In this document: positions 8,366-18,378 of the stretch, one piece after another
Layout of the letters: each line of letters begins with the position of its first letter
Numbering within the stretch: the stretch's first letter is position 1
Assembly: GCF_014235875.1 (NCBI RefSeq)
Contig: NZ_JACJUK010000006.1
Span: 1-64,000, forward strand
DNA: 64,000 bases
Reading direction: 5' to 3'
Origin: Croceivirga lutea
GTDB lineage: Bacteria > Bacteroidota > Bacteroidia > Flavobacteriales > Flavobacteriaceae
Notes under the pieces: generated by a model
The model's input: only the letters and a program-made list of their open reading frames with translations
Databases searched by the model: none
What the model was told of the DNA's origin: nothing
Program-made: the position numbers and the translations under genes

Positions 8366-8462
8366 AGATTTCTCAATTGTACTTAGACCTACTCATTTCG
8401 AAATGACTAATTAACTACTCCTTGTCATTTCGAACCGAAATAGAATGGAGTGTGAGAAATCT
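8366..8462. repeat. Palindromic ~97-bp repeat, copy 1 (left of GIY-YIG gene)
   Basis: The unit is bounded by a perfect 10-bp inverted repeat, AGATTTCTCA (8366-8375) and TGAGAAATCT (8453-8462). Inside are the perfect palindrome CATTTCGAAATG (8394-8405) and a second inverted pair TCGAAATGAC (8398-8407) / GTCATTTCGA (8424-8433). The same arrangement recurs at 8785-8880. Confidence 0.9.
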
Positions 8463-8467
8463 AAATA

Positions 8468-8767
8468 TTAGAAAACTTCGCTGTTTAAAAAGTCCCACTT
8501 TGGATTGAATTCGTTGATTAGATTTTCCTTTTTTTCTCTTCTCCATTTTTTAAGTTCCTTTTCTCTTAAAATTGCTAAAGGCATAGAATCGAAAATTTCA
8601 TAATAAATCAGATAGACACAATTGTATTTACCCGCAAAACTATTTTTACCATTTAAACTATCAAACTCATGCTGTGATAATCGTTGTTGTAAATTACCTG
8701 TTACTCCAACGTACAAAGTAGTCTTATTTTTATTCGTTAAAATATAAACATAGTAACACTTAGACAT
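8468..8767 (-). CDS. Small GIY-YIG nuclease (UPF0213/YhbQ-like) inside a repeat pair
   Basis: 99 residues from the ATG at 8767; a TTG two codons upstream is also possible but ATG is preferred. The fold is a stand-alone GIY-YIG domain: YVYIL (6-10), LYVGV (18-22), Arg29, His33, Glu in REKE (68-71) and NPKWDF (88-93). All expected catalytic positions appear intact. The family is a small structure-specific nuclease superfamily whose cellular role is mostly unknown. The gene fits with only a few bases to spare between two copies of a palindromic repeat, which suggests that gene and repeats form one element. It separates the Wzi genes from the Wzc-type kinase gene. Confidence 0.85.
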   Translation of the reverse strand: MSKCYYVYILTNKNKTTLYVGVTGNLQQRLSQHEFDSLNGKNSFAGKYNCVYLIYYEIFDSMPLAILREKELKKWRREKKENLINEFNPKWDFLNSEVF

Positions 8768-8784
8768 GCTCAAATATAAAAATA

Positions 8785-8880
8785 GGATTTCTCAATCGCA
8801 GCTAAGGCTACTCATTTCGAAATGACTAATTAACTACTTACTGGCATTTAGAACCGGAAGAAAATGTAGCTTGAGAAATA
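8785..8880. repeat. Palindromic ~97-bp repeat, copy 2 (right of GIY-YIG gene)
   Basis: Direct repeat of the 8366-8462 unit: it begins GGATTTCTCA, contains the identical core ctactcatttcgaaatgac followed by taattaactact, and ends TTGAGAAATA. The central palindrome is at 8813-8824. Its outer and right-hand arms are less perfect than in copy 1, suggesting decay. It ends about 10 bp before the stop codon of the tyrosine kinase gene. Confidence 0.88.
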
Positions 8881-13654: not shown

Positions 13655-15211
13655 TTAAGTAATTCTAGGGTAAATTTTTACCCGATATGTATGCACAAAA
13701 CTAAGCGTTATTTTTTGAGCAGGAATACGTTTATTGTATTCTTCTGCAAATTCATAGGAATTTAACGCTAGCTTCTCAATTCCTTCAAATTCAAAGCATA
13801 GGTTTTGCGTTAAAACTAAATTGTTTTTAATAATAGGCTTGCAATTGGGGTGAAAATGAAAATGACTTTTCGTTTTTAAACTACCAGCTACTAGCTCATC
13901 TTCTAAGTAAAGTATGTTATCTACCAAGCGTACTGTTCTTGTATGCCATTTTTCATAGCCATTGTGGGAGGCTTTCAGCTGTTCTGCAGCACTTTTTAAA
14001 TAGGTGACTTTAGCGCGTTTACCTACTCTAAAACCATCCCAAACCGCGGAAGAATTTTCTCCATTTACCGTAACCGTATTATGTGCACTGGTTGAACGCT
14101 CCCTTTGTCTACGTTCATTTTTTTCATAGGTGCTAGTTCCTGTATCTACCAAAATGGGTTGTCCTTGGTAGTGTAGTAATAGGTGTAAGGTATCTGCATG
14201 GGCATGTCCTGGCTGATATGTTGGGCTAATTTGTGTAGCTTTTAAGACTACCTCAAAATGGGTGTTTTCTAATTTACGGTAGCCACTTTCGCCTAAAACT
14301 GTTTCTGAAGCAGAAATTCCTAATTGTTGCGCATATTCCACCAATTGTTCTGTTGTTGGCGCAATACCATTGGCAGCATCATTTACCAAAGGTATACTGC
14401 CATCTGCCCAGCTTATAGCTTTTAACCAACCCAACATGGCTACAGCTTTCTCTTTTAGAAAAGTAGCCATATGTTCATCTAGCTGGTTTACCGAAACCAA
14501 TTGGTAACTATCTAAAACTCGATGTACTAAAATTTGATGGTACATGGGACTGAGTTCATAATGTGCGCCATCTGAAAGGATTTGTTTCTGTAGCTCCTTT
14601 TTAACAATTTGATTCCCTTTTTTAAGCAATTTTTCATCCTGAAAATAATGCCCGCCAAACACTAAGGCAAAACCGTTTTCTAATAAATGATTGGCCAATA
14701 AATGGTATTCTAATTGGTCCAATAATCGGTAAAAATCTTGATACAACAGTGTTGCTAACTCAGGGTCTAAGATTTTGGTACGAGCACTATATTTAATCCA
14801 ATTGATACCTCGTAATGAGATGGGATACGGCTCAATACCATCTTTACGAATAGCGGCTGCTGTTTTATAACTAGCTAATAATTCTTGGGCGTCAGCATCT
14901 GAAATTTTGGACTGATTCAAAAAATCGAAATAGTTGAGATTGTAGGTCCAAAGTTTACCATGTTGGTCATAGTTCCAATCTAGTTGAGAAAACTGTTCTT
15001 TTAAATTTAAAAATTGAAAGGTTTTATTGCCTAAATACGTGGTAGGCGCAGGTATGTTGTAGGGCCATTGGAATTTGGTCTGGGTTTTGGGTTGTTGGTT
15101 GTATTTTTTAGCTGGCAACATTCGTCGTAGACGGTAATACAACTGATACCCCACCTGTATGGGTTTTAAGTGGCGTAGGGTGTGGTAGTATGTTAGTAGC
15201 TTTTGTAGCAT
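13655..15211 (-). CDS. Heparinase II/III-like protein of the polysaccharide locus
   Basis: 518 residues. An N-terminal alpha-helical toroid-like region carries WTYNLNYFDFL and NHLLENGFALVFGG; the C-terminal heparinase II/III domain carries GHAHADTLHLLLHYQGQ, DTGTSTYE, RSTSAHNTVTVNGENSSAVW. No signal peptide is visible, so the protein is probably cytoplasmic or membrane-peripheral, unlike secreted heparinases. Members of this clade often neighbour a two-domain oxidoreductase in exopolysaccharide clusters, as here, but their reaction (lyase or otherwise) is not established. The nuclease-containing repeat array separates it from that oxidoreductase. Confidence 0.82.
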   Translation of the reverse strand: MLQKLLTYYHTLRHLKPIQVGYQLYYRLRRMLPAKKYNQQPKTQTKFQWPYNIPAPTTYLGNKTFQFLNLKEQFSQLDWNYDQHGKLWTYNLNYFDFLNQSKISDADAQELLASYKTAAAIRKDGIEPYPISLRGINWIKYSARTKILDPELATLLYQDFYRLLDQLEYHLLANHLLENGFALVFGGHYFQDEKLLKKGNQIVKKELQKQILSDGAHYELSPMYHQILVHRVLDSYQLVSVNQLDEHMATFLKEKAVAMLGWLKAISWADGSIPLVNDAANGIAPTTEQLVEYAQQLGISASETVLGESGYRKLENTHFEVVLKATQISPTYQPGHAHADTLHLLLHYQGQPILVDTGTSTYEKNERRQRERSTSAHNTVTVNGENSSAVWDGFRVGKRAKVTYLKSAAEQLKASHNGYEKWHTRTVRLVDNILYLEDELVAGSLKTKSHFHFHPNCKPIIKNNLVLTQNLCFEFEGIEKLALNSYEFAEEYNKRIPAQKITLSFVHTYRVKIYPRIT

Positions 15212-15258
15212 TTGGGTTTTTAGCCTTATCCCTCTTTAATTAATTTTCTTTTTTATTG

Positions 15259-15389
15259 TCAATCCCTCCGTCTAGCTACGCTAGACACCTCCCTTCTCTA
15301 AAGGGAGGAGTTTGAATGGATACTTTTCTTACCACCCTTTCCGTCTCCCTATACTCGAGAGCCACCTTTCCCTAATCAGGGAAAGGAGT
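15259..15389. repeat. Hairpin repeat array, left part (modules A1 and B1)
   Basis: Module A (15259-15322) contains two hairpins: GTCTAGC-TAC-GCTAGAC (15270-15286) and CCTCCCTT-CTCTA-AAGGGAGG (15288-15308). Module B (15329-15389) contains CCTTTCCCT-AATC-AGGGAAAGG (15365-15386). The same modules recur to the right of the nuclease gene. The last bases of module B overlap the stop codon of the DUF559 gene. Confidence 0.93.
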
Positions 15390-15755
15390 TTAATTCGTTG
15401 TAAAATTAGCTTCAATTTCAGCTAATACTGAACTTAAGTGTTTAAAAACCATTTCATTTTCAAATCGTATTACGGTAATCCCTAATGACGCTATGAATTC
15501 GGTACGCTTTTCGTCATAGGCTTCTGCTACTGGATTATTATGTACCTCTCCATCTAATTCAATTACCAGCTTTTCTGAAGCGCAGTAAAAATCAACAATA
15601 TAAGTTCCTATGCTGTGTTGCTTTTGAAATCGTTTTCCTCCTAATTGCTTTGCTTTAAGATGTTTCCATAAAAATGCCTCTGCTGGAGTTAGGTTCTTTC
15701 TTAATTCCTTGCGTTTTAAAAGCATCTCTTTTTTATTATGATTCCTTCTATTCAC
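15390..15755 (-). CDS. DUF559 family endonuclease (PD-(D/E)XK fold) inside a repeat array
   Basis: 121 residues from a GTG start; an ATG 10 codons downstream (15725) would give 111. DUF559 / Vsr-like signatures are intact: LTPAEAFLWKHLK, QKQHSIG (His47), YIVDFYC with Asp55, and the core IELDGEVH with Glu66 and Asp68, then VIRFEN. The family has the PD-(D/E)XK restriction-like fold and is predicted to cut DNA; its biological target is unknown. It lies between modules B and C of a repeat that is otherwise uninterrupted in neighbouring copies, so it appears inserted into one repeat unit. Polysaccharide genes flank the array on both sides and run in the same direction. Confidence 0.85.
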   Translation of the reverse strand: MNRRNHNKKEMLLKRKELRKNLTPAEAFLWKHLKAKQLGGKRFQKQHSIGTYIVDFYCASEKLVIELDGEVHNNPVAEAYDEKRTEFIASLGITVIRFENEMVFKHLSSVLAEIEANFTTN

Positions 15756-15781
15756 GTTACTATTTTATAGCATGTACAGAA

Positions 15782-16266
15782 CAACTCCCCTCTTTAGAAA
15801 AGAGGGGTGGTTTTGCATAGCAAAAGCGGGGAGATTGATTCGCTTTATTTTCAATCCCTCCGTCTAGCTACGCTAGACACCTCCCTTCTCTAAAGGGAGG
15901 AGTTTGAATGGATACTACTCTTACCACCCTTTCCGTCTCCCGATGCTCGGGAGCCACGTTTCCCTAACTAGGGAAAGGAGTTTGTTGTGGTTTTGCATAG
16001 CAAAAGCGGGGAGATTGATTTATCTTAATTTTCAATCCCTCCGTCCAGCTGCGCTAGACACCTCCCTTCGCTAAAGGGAGGAGTTTAAATTGATACTTTT
16101 CTTACCACCCTTTCCGTCTCCCGATGCTCGGGAGCCACCTTTCCCTAACTAGGAAAGGAGTTGTTATGGTTTAGCATAGCAAAAGCGGGGAGATTGATTT
16201 ATTTTAATTTTCAATCCCTCCGTCTAGCTGTGCTGGACACCTCCCTTCTCTAAAGGGAGGAGTTTT
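15782..16266. repeat. Hairpin repeat array, right part (C1, A2-B2-C2, A3-B3-C3, A4)
   Basis: Module A restarts at 15851, 16032 and 16211, so the unit is about 180 bp. Each full unit has A (two hairpins), B (including CTCCCGA-TGC-TCGGGAG and a TTTCCCTA/TAGGGAAA-type stem) and C (TTTTGC-ATA-GCAAAA, first copy at 15811-15825). The first C is preceded by an extra hairpin CCCCTCTT-TAGAA-AAGAGGGG (15787-15807). A1 and A2 are identical over their first ~65 bases by eye. The last A module ends directly at the stop codon of the oxidoreductase gene. Confidence 0.93.
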
Positions 16267-18378
16267 CTAAACTGCTACCCACTGCCCTGTTTTTAAGCTT
16301 TCTAGGGCTGCAAGGCTTGCTTTTGTGGTGTTGTACACTTCATCAAATCTAATGATTGCCTCACCTCCTTTTTGAAGGTAATCTACCACTAACTGAAATT
16401 GTTTTTTATGCCCCTTATCTTGTCTGGTTTTTTGCTTTTTAAAGCCTTTAAATCCATATCCTTTTAACACACGCCAATTGTCCATCACCAACGTACGTTC
16501 TTGGCTATATACCTCTACACGTTCTTTGCTGTAAGCTTTACTTCCGTTAGAAAAATAATTAATCACTGCATTGGTACCGTTTTCATATTTCAATACAATA
16601 CTGGCATTATCTGTATTTTCTTCGGGTTGCGTACCCATTGCATTCATACACACTTCAACCACTTTACTATCGGCTAGGTAGGAACACAAATCAATATAAT
16701 GGCAAGCTTCGCCTAGAATACGGCCGCCGCCAACTTGCATATCGTGCACCCAAACATCTGCCGGTATAAAACCAGCGTTCATGGTCGCAATAATGTTTTT
16801 AGGGCCTGACCCTACTAACTTTTTCATTTGGGTAGCCAAGGGTGCAAAACGCCTGTTAAAACCAACTACTACCATGTTACCTGTTGCTTCTTGCGCGTTT
16901 TTTATAGCTTCTAATTCTTCTTGGGTTAAGCACAACGGCTTTTCTACAAACACGTGTTTACCTGCTTCTAGCGCTTCTAAAGTCAATTGTGCATGTAGGT
17001 TATGGCGTGTGGTAATCAACACCATGTCTACTTCATCATCGGCCAAAAGGGCTTTATAATCACTACTGGCATTGGCAATGTTTCCCTTTTTTGCAAGGGT
17101 TTTGGCATTTAAACCACCGGCACTGGCTATGTATTTAACTTGAGCTTGAGCGCTATTTAGTGCAGGAATAATTGTGGAAGACGTAAAGTTACCTGCACCG
17201 ATAATACCCAACACGCCTTTAGTTGCCGAAAACTGTTGCGAAGTCACTGCCACTTTAGCTGTTTGGTCAGCTTGCTCTGGATATTCTAAAATACTGGCAA
17301 TACTACCCGCTTTGCGCATATCACCATAAATTTCTTCATAATTGGCTAGGGGAACACGTTCTGTGATGAGCGACTTTACCTTTAGCTGTTCGTGGCTAAT
17401 AGCTTGCAAAACGGCTTCAAAATTGCGCTTTTCTGTCCAACGTACGTAACCTACAGGATAATCTTGCCCTTTTTGTTCGTAGTTATCGTCATAACGTCCT
17501 GGACCGTAGGAACAGGAAACTTGAAAGGTGAGTTCTTTATCAAAAAAGTCTGACCGTTGTAGGTTGAGTCCTATAACACCCACCAAGACAATGCGGCCTC
17601 GCTTTCTGCTCATTTGTGCCGCTTGGTGAATAACCTCATCAGATTTTGCTGATGCCGTAATAATTACCGCATCGGCACCTACCGCATTGGTGTGCTCTAA
17701 AACGGTTTTTACCGGGTCTGCCCCAGCTTTAGGATTAATAGTGGTAATCCCCTTTTCTTCGGCTAAGGCTAGCTTTTGTGGGTCAAAATCTATACCAATA
17801 ACCTTACAACCGTTAGCTTGTAATAACTCTGCGGTGACCAAACCAATTAGCCCTAAACCAATGACTACAATGGTTTCGCCAAAAGTGGGATTGGTTAAGC
17901 GTATGCCTTGCAAACCAATAGCGCCAATAACGGTAAAGGCCGCTTCTTCATCAACAACGTTGTCTGGTATTTTAGCTACTAGGTTTTGAGGCACACACAC
18001 AAACTCAGCATGGTGACCGTTAGAAGCTACGCGGTCTCCTACTTGAAATTCTGAAACCCCTTTGCCTACCGCTTTAACAACACCTACATTACAATAGCCT
18101 AAGGGTAAGGGTTGATTGAGTTTATTAAAAACCGCATCTAGGGTAGGTTTAATACCATCGGTTTTCATTTTATCGAGCACCTGTTTTACCTTATCGGGTT
18201 GTTGTTTGGCTTTTTGTATAAAATTGGCTTTACCAAACTCTACCAGCATACGCTCTGTACCTAAAGACACTAAAGAACGGGTAGTTTTAATTAATACCTG
18301 CCCCGCTTTTACCTGAGGTGCTGGCACCTCTTCTAATACCGTAGCCCCGTTTTTAAGGTCTTGGATGATTTGTTTCAT
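16267..18378 (-). CDS. Two-domain oxidoreductase: zinc-type dehydrogenase fused to Gfo/Idh/MocA
   Basis: 703 residues. The first half (~1-365) is a medium-chain dehydrogenase/reductase: LGYCNVGVVKAVG, GDRVASNGHHAEF and the Rossmann motif VVIGLGLIGLVTAELL. The second half (~385-703) is a Gfo/Idh/MocA oxidoreductase: LGIIGAGNFTSSTIIPAL (GxGxxx nucleotide motif), HNLHAQLTLEALEAGKHVFVEKP with the catalytic-type EKP, and RFAPL. Such fusions are common in polysaccharide loci next to heparinase II/III-like genes and probably modify a nucleotide sugar or glycan, but the reaction is unknown. It follows the acetyltransferase after 3 bp. Its base composition is clearly less AT-rich than the upstream cassette. 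Confidence 0.88.
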   Translation of the reverse strand: MKQIIQDLKNGATVLEEVPAPQVKAGQVLIKTTRSLVSLGTERMLVEFGKANFIQKAKQQPDKVKQVLDKMKTDGIKPTLDAVFNKLNQPLPLGYCNVGVVKAVGKGVSEFQVGDRVASNGHHAEFVCVPQNLVAKIPDNVVDEEAAFTVIGAIGLQGIRLTNPTFGETIVVIGLGLIGLVTAELLQANGCKVIGIDFDPQKLALAEEKGITTINPKAGADPVKTVLEHTNAVGADAVIITASAKSDEVIHQAAQMSRKRGRIVLVGVIGLNLQRSDFFDKELTFQVSCSYGPGRYDDNYEQKGQDYPVGYVRWTEKRNFEAVLQAISHEQLKVKSLITERVPLANYEEIYGDMRKAGSIASILEYPEQADQTAKVAVTSQQFSATKGVLGIIGAGNFTSSTIIPALNSAQAQVKYIASAGGLNAKTLAKKGNIANASSDYKALLADDEVDMVLITTRHNLHAQLTLEALEAGKHVFVEKPLCLTQEELEAIKNAQEATGNMVVVGFNRRFAPLATQMKKLVGSGPKNIIATMNAGFIPADVWVHDMQVGGGRILGEACHYIDLCSYLADSKVVEVCMNAMGTQPEENTDNASIVLKYENGTNAVINYFSNGSKAYSKERVEVYSQERTLVMDNWRVLKGYGFKGFKKQKTRQDKGHKKQFQLVVDYLQKGGEAIIRFDEVYNTTKASLAALESLKTGQWVAV

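Follow-up and report, generated by a model that had tools for sequence, protein, structure and literature searches.

Among described bacterial repeats, the closest to the locus reported here are the PIT/TM repeats of Escherichia coli, intergenic hairpins of a pyrimidine (Y) and a purine (R) tract with a mirror third tract, which can occur in inverted pairs and whose site content varies between strains (PMC4666352). According to the accessible text of Holder et al. 2015, the TM_ECO motif has 23 copies in K-12, all of them intergenic, and varies among 56 E. coli strains; a G/C-rich triplex motif is present in >260 genomes, and the ITxF search rule admits 1-6 nt loops between tracts (PMC4666352). 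The same text reports neither promoter nor terminator activity for TM_ECO, no triplex observed in vivo for the E. coli motif and no mobility gene flanking TM motifs, and it presents the mechanism of TM_ECO spread as unexplained; the words ycjD, DUF, nuclease and endonuclease are absent from its main text (PMC4666352). The locus described below is like these repeats in hairpin, mirror tract, inverted pairing and variable site content, but its modules have a linker of 18-26 nt, mostly with a hairpin of its own, as against three bases (TTA) in E. coli, and they stand in tandem with a nuclease gene inside.

Three other known systems invite comparison. RAYTs are HUH tyrosine enzymes; MITEs and Correia-like elements comprise gene-less repeats with inverted ends alongside a gene-bearing version; and the known EDxHD/Vsr-like homing endonucleases home into introns or split-intein genes. 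The REP/RAYT system is similar to the present locus in that short structured intergenic repeats are tied to a repeat-flanked nuclease gene and have many gene-less copies, but the enzyme here is PD-(D/E)XK-like, being a DUF559 protein with the 3hrl fold and not an HUH (Y1) transposase, and the repeat is a triplex hairpin, while REPs bear a GTAG or CGTC tag (PMC3733652). Gene-less units beside a gene-bearing unit recall MITEs and Correia-like elements, from which the locus differs in its gene, a nuclease of another fold; no clean target duplication was found in the alleles compared. The window protein is matched in fold by the homing endonuclease I-Bth0305I and shares with the EDxHD type its unvarying E, D, H and D positions, but its gene lies within intergenic repeat arrays.

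DUF559 was placed in the PD-(D/E)XK superfamily in an analysis in which YcjD, according to the part of the text available, detects Vsr (PMC1189080). In the literature searched, which comprised few subscription journals and mainly titles and abstract starts, no link between DUF559 and triplex repeats was found; DUF559 and triplex repeats are each known, and their link, its breadth and the co-variation described below appear to be new.

The repeat array and its nuclease in Croceivirga lutea

The window, that is, the whole stretch of 64,000 nucleotides analyzed (Croceivirga lutea, assembly GCF_014235875.1, contig NZ_JACJUK010000006.1, positions 1 to 64,000), appears from the look of its genes to be an exopolysaccharide cluster, and its closest DUF559 relatives point to a flavobacterium. 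About 1.05 kb between a heparinase-like gene and a bi-domain oxidoreductase gene consists mostly of four repeat units, three near-full and one partial, which start exactly where the preliminary description had placed them (Table 1). Taking unit 2 as the reference, unit 1 matches it at 94% over the first 133 of 181 bases, unit 3 at 93% over the full length and unit 4 at 95% over the first 55 bases. The description had also recognized a DUF559 gene plus an extra 9-bp hairpin between modules B and C of unit 1 and a direct passage from B into C in units 2 and 3, and both were borne out; the extra hairpin and C, listed there as separate parts, are both present but together make up one module in reverse orientation.

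Table 1. Features of the repeat array and its borders (positions in the window)
Feature	Position	Strand or orientation	Remarks
Left border gene, heparinase II/III-like	13655..15211	-	
Unit 1, module A	15259..15310	+	TCAATC end
Unit 1, module A, third tract	15263-15269		TCCCTCC
Unit 1, module A, linker hairpin	15270-15286		
Unit 1, module A, triplex hairpin	15288-15308		arms CCTCCCTT / AAGGGAGG
Unit 1, module B	15335..15386	+	decayed linker hairpin after third tract
Unit 1, module B, third tract	15335-15342		CCCTTTCC
Unit 1, module B, triplex hairpin	15365-15386		
DUF559 nuclease gene	15390..15755	-	121 aa, GTG start, YcjD-like, PD-(D/E)XK / EDxHD
Unit 1, module C	15787..15838	-, reverse	
Unit 1, module C, triplex hairpin	15787-15807		9-bp stem; "extra hairpin" of the preliminary description
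Unit 1, module C, linker hairpin	15811-15825		
Unit 1, module C, third tract	15828-15834		
Unit 1, module C, GATTGA end	15833-15838		
Unit 2, gene-less	15851..16031	+	A, B, truncated C; gene and C hairpin missing
Unit 3, gene-less	16032..16210	+	A, B, truncated C
Unit 4, partial	16211..16265	+	module A only; stops beside oxidoreductase gene end
Right border gene, bi-domain oxidoreductase	16267..18378	-	

Each module follows one plan, namely a Y-tract, a linker hairpin, a second Y-tract, a loop and an R-tract, with module C having this plan reversed. The tracts of module A are CCCTCC, the linker hairpin GTCTAGC-TAC-GCTAGAC, CCTCCCTT and AAGGGAGG; those of module B are CCCTTTCC, the linker hairpin, CCTTTCCC and GGGAAAGG. 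The first Y-tract mirrors the second, as the third strand of a predicted intrastrand triplex would need. All eight R/Y hairpins of the array (stem of at least 6 bp) are accompanied, at a distance of 18-26 nt, by an exactly mirrored third tract of 6-8 nt, and hence the term "hairpin repeat" was right about the stems but understated the structure. Like PIT/TM, all eight combine a Y-R hairpin with a mirror tract of 6 nt or longer, and their 18-26 nt linker to the third tract exceeds the 1-6 nt loops of the ITxF rule; thus, the array has PIT/TM geometry without belonging to the same listed class.

The termini of unit 1 form an inverted pair, with TCAATC at the start and GATTGA at the end. Since the linker hairpin and third tract of module C are kept in units 2 and 3, from which the gene and the C hairpin are gone, these gene-less units look like internal-deletion derivatives; the events may also have run in the reverse order. 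Perfectly paired stems of 7 bp or more are concentrated here, with 13 of the window's 48 lying at 15200-16300 (one of them within the gene) and 35 in the other 62.9 kb. As single-stranded DNA, the repeat unit has a predicted fold 5.4 SD below that of shuffled sequences, none of 200 shuffles being equally stable. No Rfam family matched the window at threshold, and elsewhere in the organism's own genome (3.45 Mb, 19 contigs) the unit has one weak match, 75% over 64 bases.

The open reading frame on the reverse strand matched PF04480 with E=3.4e-34 and 117.4 bits, compared with a curated cut-off of 20.6, and was the only DUF559 match in the C. lutea genome. The nuclease core that had been called intact from the sequence (D55, E66, D68) proved invariant in 47 aligned homologues, as did R19, E26, W30, Q46, F56, G69, H72 and D81, and the putative active site (D55, E66, D68, H72, D81) of the window protein is likewise intact. 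The invariant E26, D55, E66, D68, H72 and D81 agree with a predicted active site of the EDxHD/Vsr-like type. The protein matched PDB 3hrl by sequence (E=6.9e-22), and its AlphaFold2 model (mean pLDDT 88) had 3hrl as its first fold match, followed by the catalytic domain of I-Bth0305I (E=2e-4, TM 0.61), the best fold match outside DUF559. Plasmid and phage records gave 38 and 3 DUF559 matches, respectively, every one at <60% identity. A known defense system was also considered and is unsupported because PADLOC gave only weak matches.

A second nuclease gene lies in the same window. This GIY-YIG gene (PF01541, E=7e-18), at 8468-8773, stands between two 94-bp direct repeats (8367-8460 and 8786-8879) that are 81% identical and have palindromic CATTTCGAAATGAC and GATTTCTCA...TGAGAAAT ends, and together they may be another nuclease-in-repeat element of a different kind.

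Hairpin modules beside DUF559 genes across bacteria

A protein search of one-per-species genomes that was blind to repeats gave 68 named loci, and the loci fetched were part of the standalone DUF559 genes found in relatives. Removal of duplicate proteins and of genes matching <80 profile positions left 127 genes from 160 matches. Hairpins with a pure R/Y stem of at least 7 bp were counted within 400 bp of the gene, and DNA >1.2 kb away in the same loci served as the comparison. Five loci (L122, L123, L126, L127 and L128) had been chosen for a hairpin already known beside the gene, and therefore the headline figures refer to the 61 standalone genes from the protein search. An R/Y hairpin was found near 54 of these 61 genes, on both sides in 31, and hairpin density was 3.38/kb within 400 bp compared with 0.089/kb beyond 1.2 kb. 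Among all distinct standalone genes, the fraction with a near hairpin was 88/111 (84/107 without loci picked for a known hairpin). The remaining 23 of the 111, including 7 of the 61, had no qualifying near hairpin, and both E. coli DUF559 genes were without one under this strict stem rule.

Hairpin-flanked standalone DUF559 genes extend from Bacteroidota to Clostridia. The arms are CCTCCCTTT and CCCCTCTTT at flavobacterial loci, CCCCTCCT at Chitinophagales loci and CCCCCTCC and CTCCTCC at Clostridia loci; single hairpin-bearing loci were labeled Geobacter, Planctomycetota and Muribacter, and in Neisseria gonorrhoeae three tandem copies of R/Y hairpins come after a DUF559 gene (L133). Thus, most of the DUF559 flanks collected from relatives carry the same kind of hairpin module, and not unrelated DNA throughout. 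Together with the gene-less copies and the arm-clade relation described below, this occurrence of the module in several phyla lends good support to the earlier proposal that gene and repeats form one element.

Ordinary terminators, or hairpins standing by chance beside a small gene, would also place stems near DUF559, and the presence of R/Y hairpins near fused DUF559 genes too, mostly without a third tract, fits such an origin. We nevertheless regard it as very improbable, considering that hairpins stand on both sides of 48 of the 111 standalone genes, that their density near the gene is ∼34-fold that in distal DNA (2.78/kb versus 0.081/kb), that 235 of 238 near hairpins are pyrimidine-first and that the arms track the nuclease clade. 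The third tract likewise lies far above expectation: a mirror tract of at least 6 nt was found at 139 of the 238 near hairpins, counts that include non-independent hairpins from within arrays and from related genes, whereas 200 shuffles of the flanks averaged 18.4 and never exceeded 31; when each gene contributed a single hairpin, the fraction was 50/88 (shuffled mean 7.3, maximum 13). Far hairpins also have the tract (14 of 25), indicating that this geometry marks the repeat and not merely a place beside the gene. Linker hairpins argue in the same direction, since stems of at least 6 bp occur in 61 of 89 distinct linkers of at least 16 nt (shuffled mean 2.7, maximum 7) although the linker sequences differ, showing that structure and not sequence is conserved.

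Fused genes, defined as DUF559 domains in frames of at least 300 codons from stop to stop, were chosen to provide a negative control and serve as one only in part. An R/Y hairpin was near 8 of the 15 (9 hairpins, 1.03/kb), but a third tract was present at only one of the 9, and hence a triplex-type hairpin was near 1/15 fused genes versus 64/111 standalone genes. All but two of the 9 hairpins are within the reading frame, 20-65 bp ahead of the domain, and they may derive from coding sequence that related proteins have in common or from an earlier insertion in frame. In six long frames (L080, L014, L017, L018, L182 and L191), the R/Y hairpin is 31-65 bp before the internal DUF559 domain, as if hairpin and domain had entered together once, shared coding sequence being the plain alternative.

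A fixed slot for the nuclease, as the preliminary description had proposed, did not generalize. For the 21 genes with a third tract at the nearest hairpin on both sides, the two modules are inverted in 13 and in the same orientation in 8; in the inverted set, the third tracts point towards the gene in 10 and away from it in 3 (L051, L127 and the window), so that the arrangement of the window is found, the window included, in only 3/21 comparable genes.

Gene-less copies, array-free borders and E. coli ycjD

In a genome of the same genus (G002), the counterparts of both border genes overlap each other, the likely start codon of the heparinase gene lying within the oxidoreductase end, and the first 700 bases of this stretch contain no hairpin of at least 7 bp; the right border gene is represented there by a partial homologue containing in-frame stops, which makes this a good but single array-free case. 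G004 has a further open frame of 416 codons between the oxidoreductase orthologue and the heparinase homologue, and no R/Y hairpin with a stem of at least 8 bp was found in the 3.7 kb of this region. Considering the extra frame and the partial G002 homologue, the ancestral gene order is uncertain.

Solo arrays without the gene, which the preliminary description had suggested looking for, do occur, and the modules are not restricted to the window. Hairpins remote from any DUF559 gene were found in G001, G004, G005, G006, G009, G048 and G034. A gene-less tandem in G288 (C10:16740-17526) has at least five CCTCCCTTT hairpins at ∼191 bp spacing, and the sole DUF559 match of that genome lies in a long fused frame. 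Two hairpin-bearing contig ends of G004 carry weak, short N-terminal DUF559 remnants (L111 and L112, E ∼1e-5; perhaps one locus), and in G002 three tandem N-terminal DUF559 fragments precede one full gene (L124, C1:3979000-3984500), suggesting that array units can include pieces of the gene. At another locus (L198, G083 C2:233400-237500), two DUF559 genes that agree in length and score lie ∼1.4 kb apart, apparently a tandem duplication.

These observations bear on the idea that DUF559 is a Vsr-like repair or host nuclease and that the hairpins are regulatory or protective DNA, serving autoregulation or blocking self-cutting, and are not mobile. Consistent with it, the Caulobacter DUF559 protein VsrA was tied, in the accessible part of the report, to DNA damage in cells without a cytosine methyltransferase (PMC12907096). 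Gene-less arrays, dispersed solo copies, tandem gene fragments and the array-free G002 border genes fit mobility better, and the E. coli motif was reported without promoter or terminator activity in the text available (PMC4666352); we therefore judge a resident host function improbable.

The DUF559 member of E. coli is ycjD, located between sapF and fabI and matched in 3365 of 5426 complete genomes. The repeat 3' of ycjD is the TM_ECO motif of Holder et al. 2015, formerly PIT, a 15-base piece of which was matched in PMC4666352. Counting the ycjD locus, strain H240 has 27 places with this hairpin and strain KE47 has 16 (on 25 and 15 loci), with one DUF559 place in each of these records; apart from the ycjD locus, 3 of 14 solo sites of KE47 have a counterpart in H240. 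Genomes lacking ycjD have 3-6 repeat-matching places each, of which up to two are possibly the sapF and fabI ends. No clean empty ycjD site was found: in three E. coli records lacking ycjD, the position holds an RND efflux operon, an arrangement likewise described in the accessible text of PMC12817139, and the TM core is in none of these three stretches. Comparison of three solo TM sites between E. coli strains revealed no clean insertion, target-site duplication or exact ends, and sstT-alx showed one internal-deletion allele and one replaced block. A simple insertion at gcvP was considered and rejected: ygfF is also present in the element-bearing strain and is missing from the two strains compared.

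Further variation was seen in E. coli. Between gldA and yijF (L176, L155), a TM pair in KE47 corresponds to a different stretch in BW25113, presumably a REP-like pair, as if one repeat family had been swapped for another at the same intergenic place. A long inverted repeat at the ycjD 5' end in K-12 (L134 1813-1857), which in KE47 (L132) forms a perfect stem of 19 bp, may represent a terminator, a regulator or an element end. In strain ETEC6 (L140), ycjD is broken by an IS1 element.

Co-variation of repeat arms with the nuclease and a proposed element

Protein distance and arm similarity were correlated across 88 genes (Mantel r=0.436, reached in 0 of 5000 permutations), with r=0.492 in the largest nuclease clade (54 genes) and 0.405 in the remaining 34. 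For instance, one clade (L185, L188, L196 and L216) has TCCCCTC arms in four genomes (G009, G001, G079 and G047), and the other DUF559 genes of G009, G047 and G079 have arms largely unlike these, those of G001 being close. Mean arm similarity was 0.26 for 12 within-genome pairs of unlike nucleases and 0.57 for 37 cross-genome pairs of near nucleases. The rule that arms follow the nuclease is not absolute, given that two of the 12 unlike-nuclease pairs, both in G001, have similar arms (0.67) and that a fairly close nuclease pair in G002 has unlike arms (0.07). Nevertheless, the fact that unlike clades in one genome mostly occur in different repeat families while near nucleases are alike across genomes indicates that the repeats travel with the nuclease.

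Such co-variation weighs against a guest relationship, in which triplex repeats spread by other means and DUF559, as a homing-endonuclease-like parasite, cuts and settles in them as a safe harbor, adapting to the repeats and not spreading them. The likeness to I-Bth0305I, the excess of solo repeats over DUF559 places in H240 and KE47 and the TM-like places that seem to persist without ycjD (subject to the possible sapF and fabI ends) all accord with a guest. Genomic co-occurrence speaks for a closer bond. Among 149 relatives, 22 carry the pattern, and 11 of these have an exactly palindromic CCTCCCTTT or CCCCTCTTT hairpin; standalone DUF559 was found in 10 of the 11, the exception being G034, which has no DUF559 match of any kind, versus 30 of the 138 others, although we do not rely on a p-value since 7 of the 11 belong to one genus. 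In an order-wide sample, the CCTCCCTTT hairpin was present in 5 of 395 genomes, all five with a DUF559 match (overall 90/395), which in G288 is the fused form only and in G191, G254 and G041 is a standalone match within ∼200 bp of the hairpin. On balance, a guest relationship seems unlikely, if less so than a host function.

We consider it probable that a Vsr/EDxHD-like DUF559 gene among its cognate DNA-structure modules constitutes a small REP-like selfish element from which the gene-less units are derived. For DUF559 itself we infer a part in recognition, cleavage, copying, mobilization and the choice of DNA ends. According to this proposal, the module would fold when single-stranded, e.g., at a replication fork, into a hairpin with an intrastrand triplex, and the cognate nuclease would recognize the folded module and nick or cut at or near it. 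Subsequent repair could copy the modules to intergenic sites, either alone or together with the gene, and amplify them in tandem. Gene-bearing units would be autonomous, and units that lose the gene would persist as non-autonomous copies, such as units 2 to 4 here and PIT/TM in E. coli. More tentatively, though as a serious possibility, DUF559/YcjD proteins may be the engines of bacteria-wide selfish elements that are signaled by DNA shape (hairpin plus triplex) and not by a fixed sequence, independent of RAYT/REP, with PIT/TM of E. coli and similar repeats of Neisseria, Clostridia and Bacteroidota as the non-autonomous copies.

DUF559, which accompanies these modules in several phyla, is a candidate enzyme for triplex repeats, and since E. 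coli K-12 possesses it in the form of ycjD, the origin of TM repeats can be tested in laboratory strains already available. A genomic context is also supplied for a nuclease family on which little was found in print. The co-variation of arm sequence with the protein suggests an enzyme reading DNA shape, and the association may explain the origin of a puzzling class of bacterial repeats.
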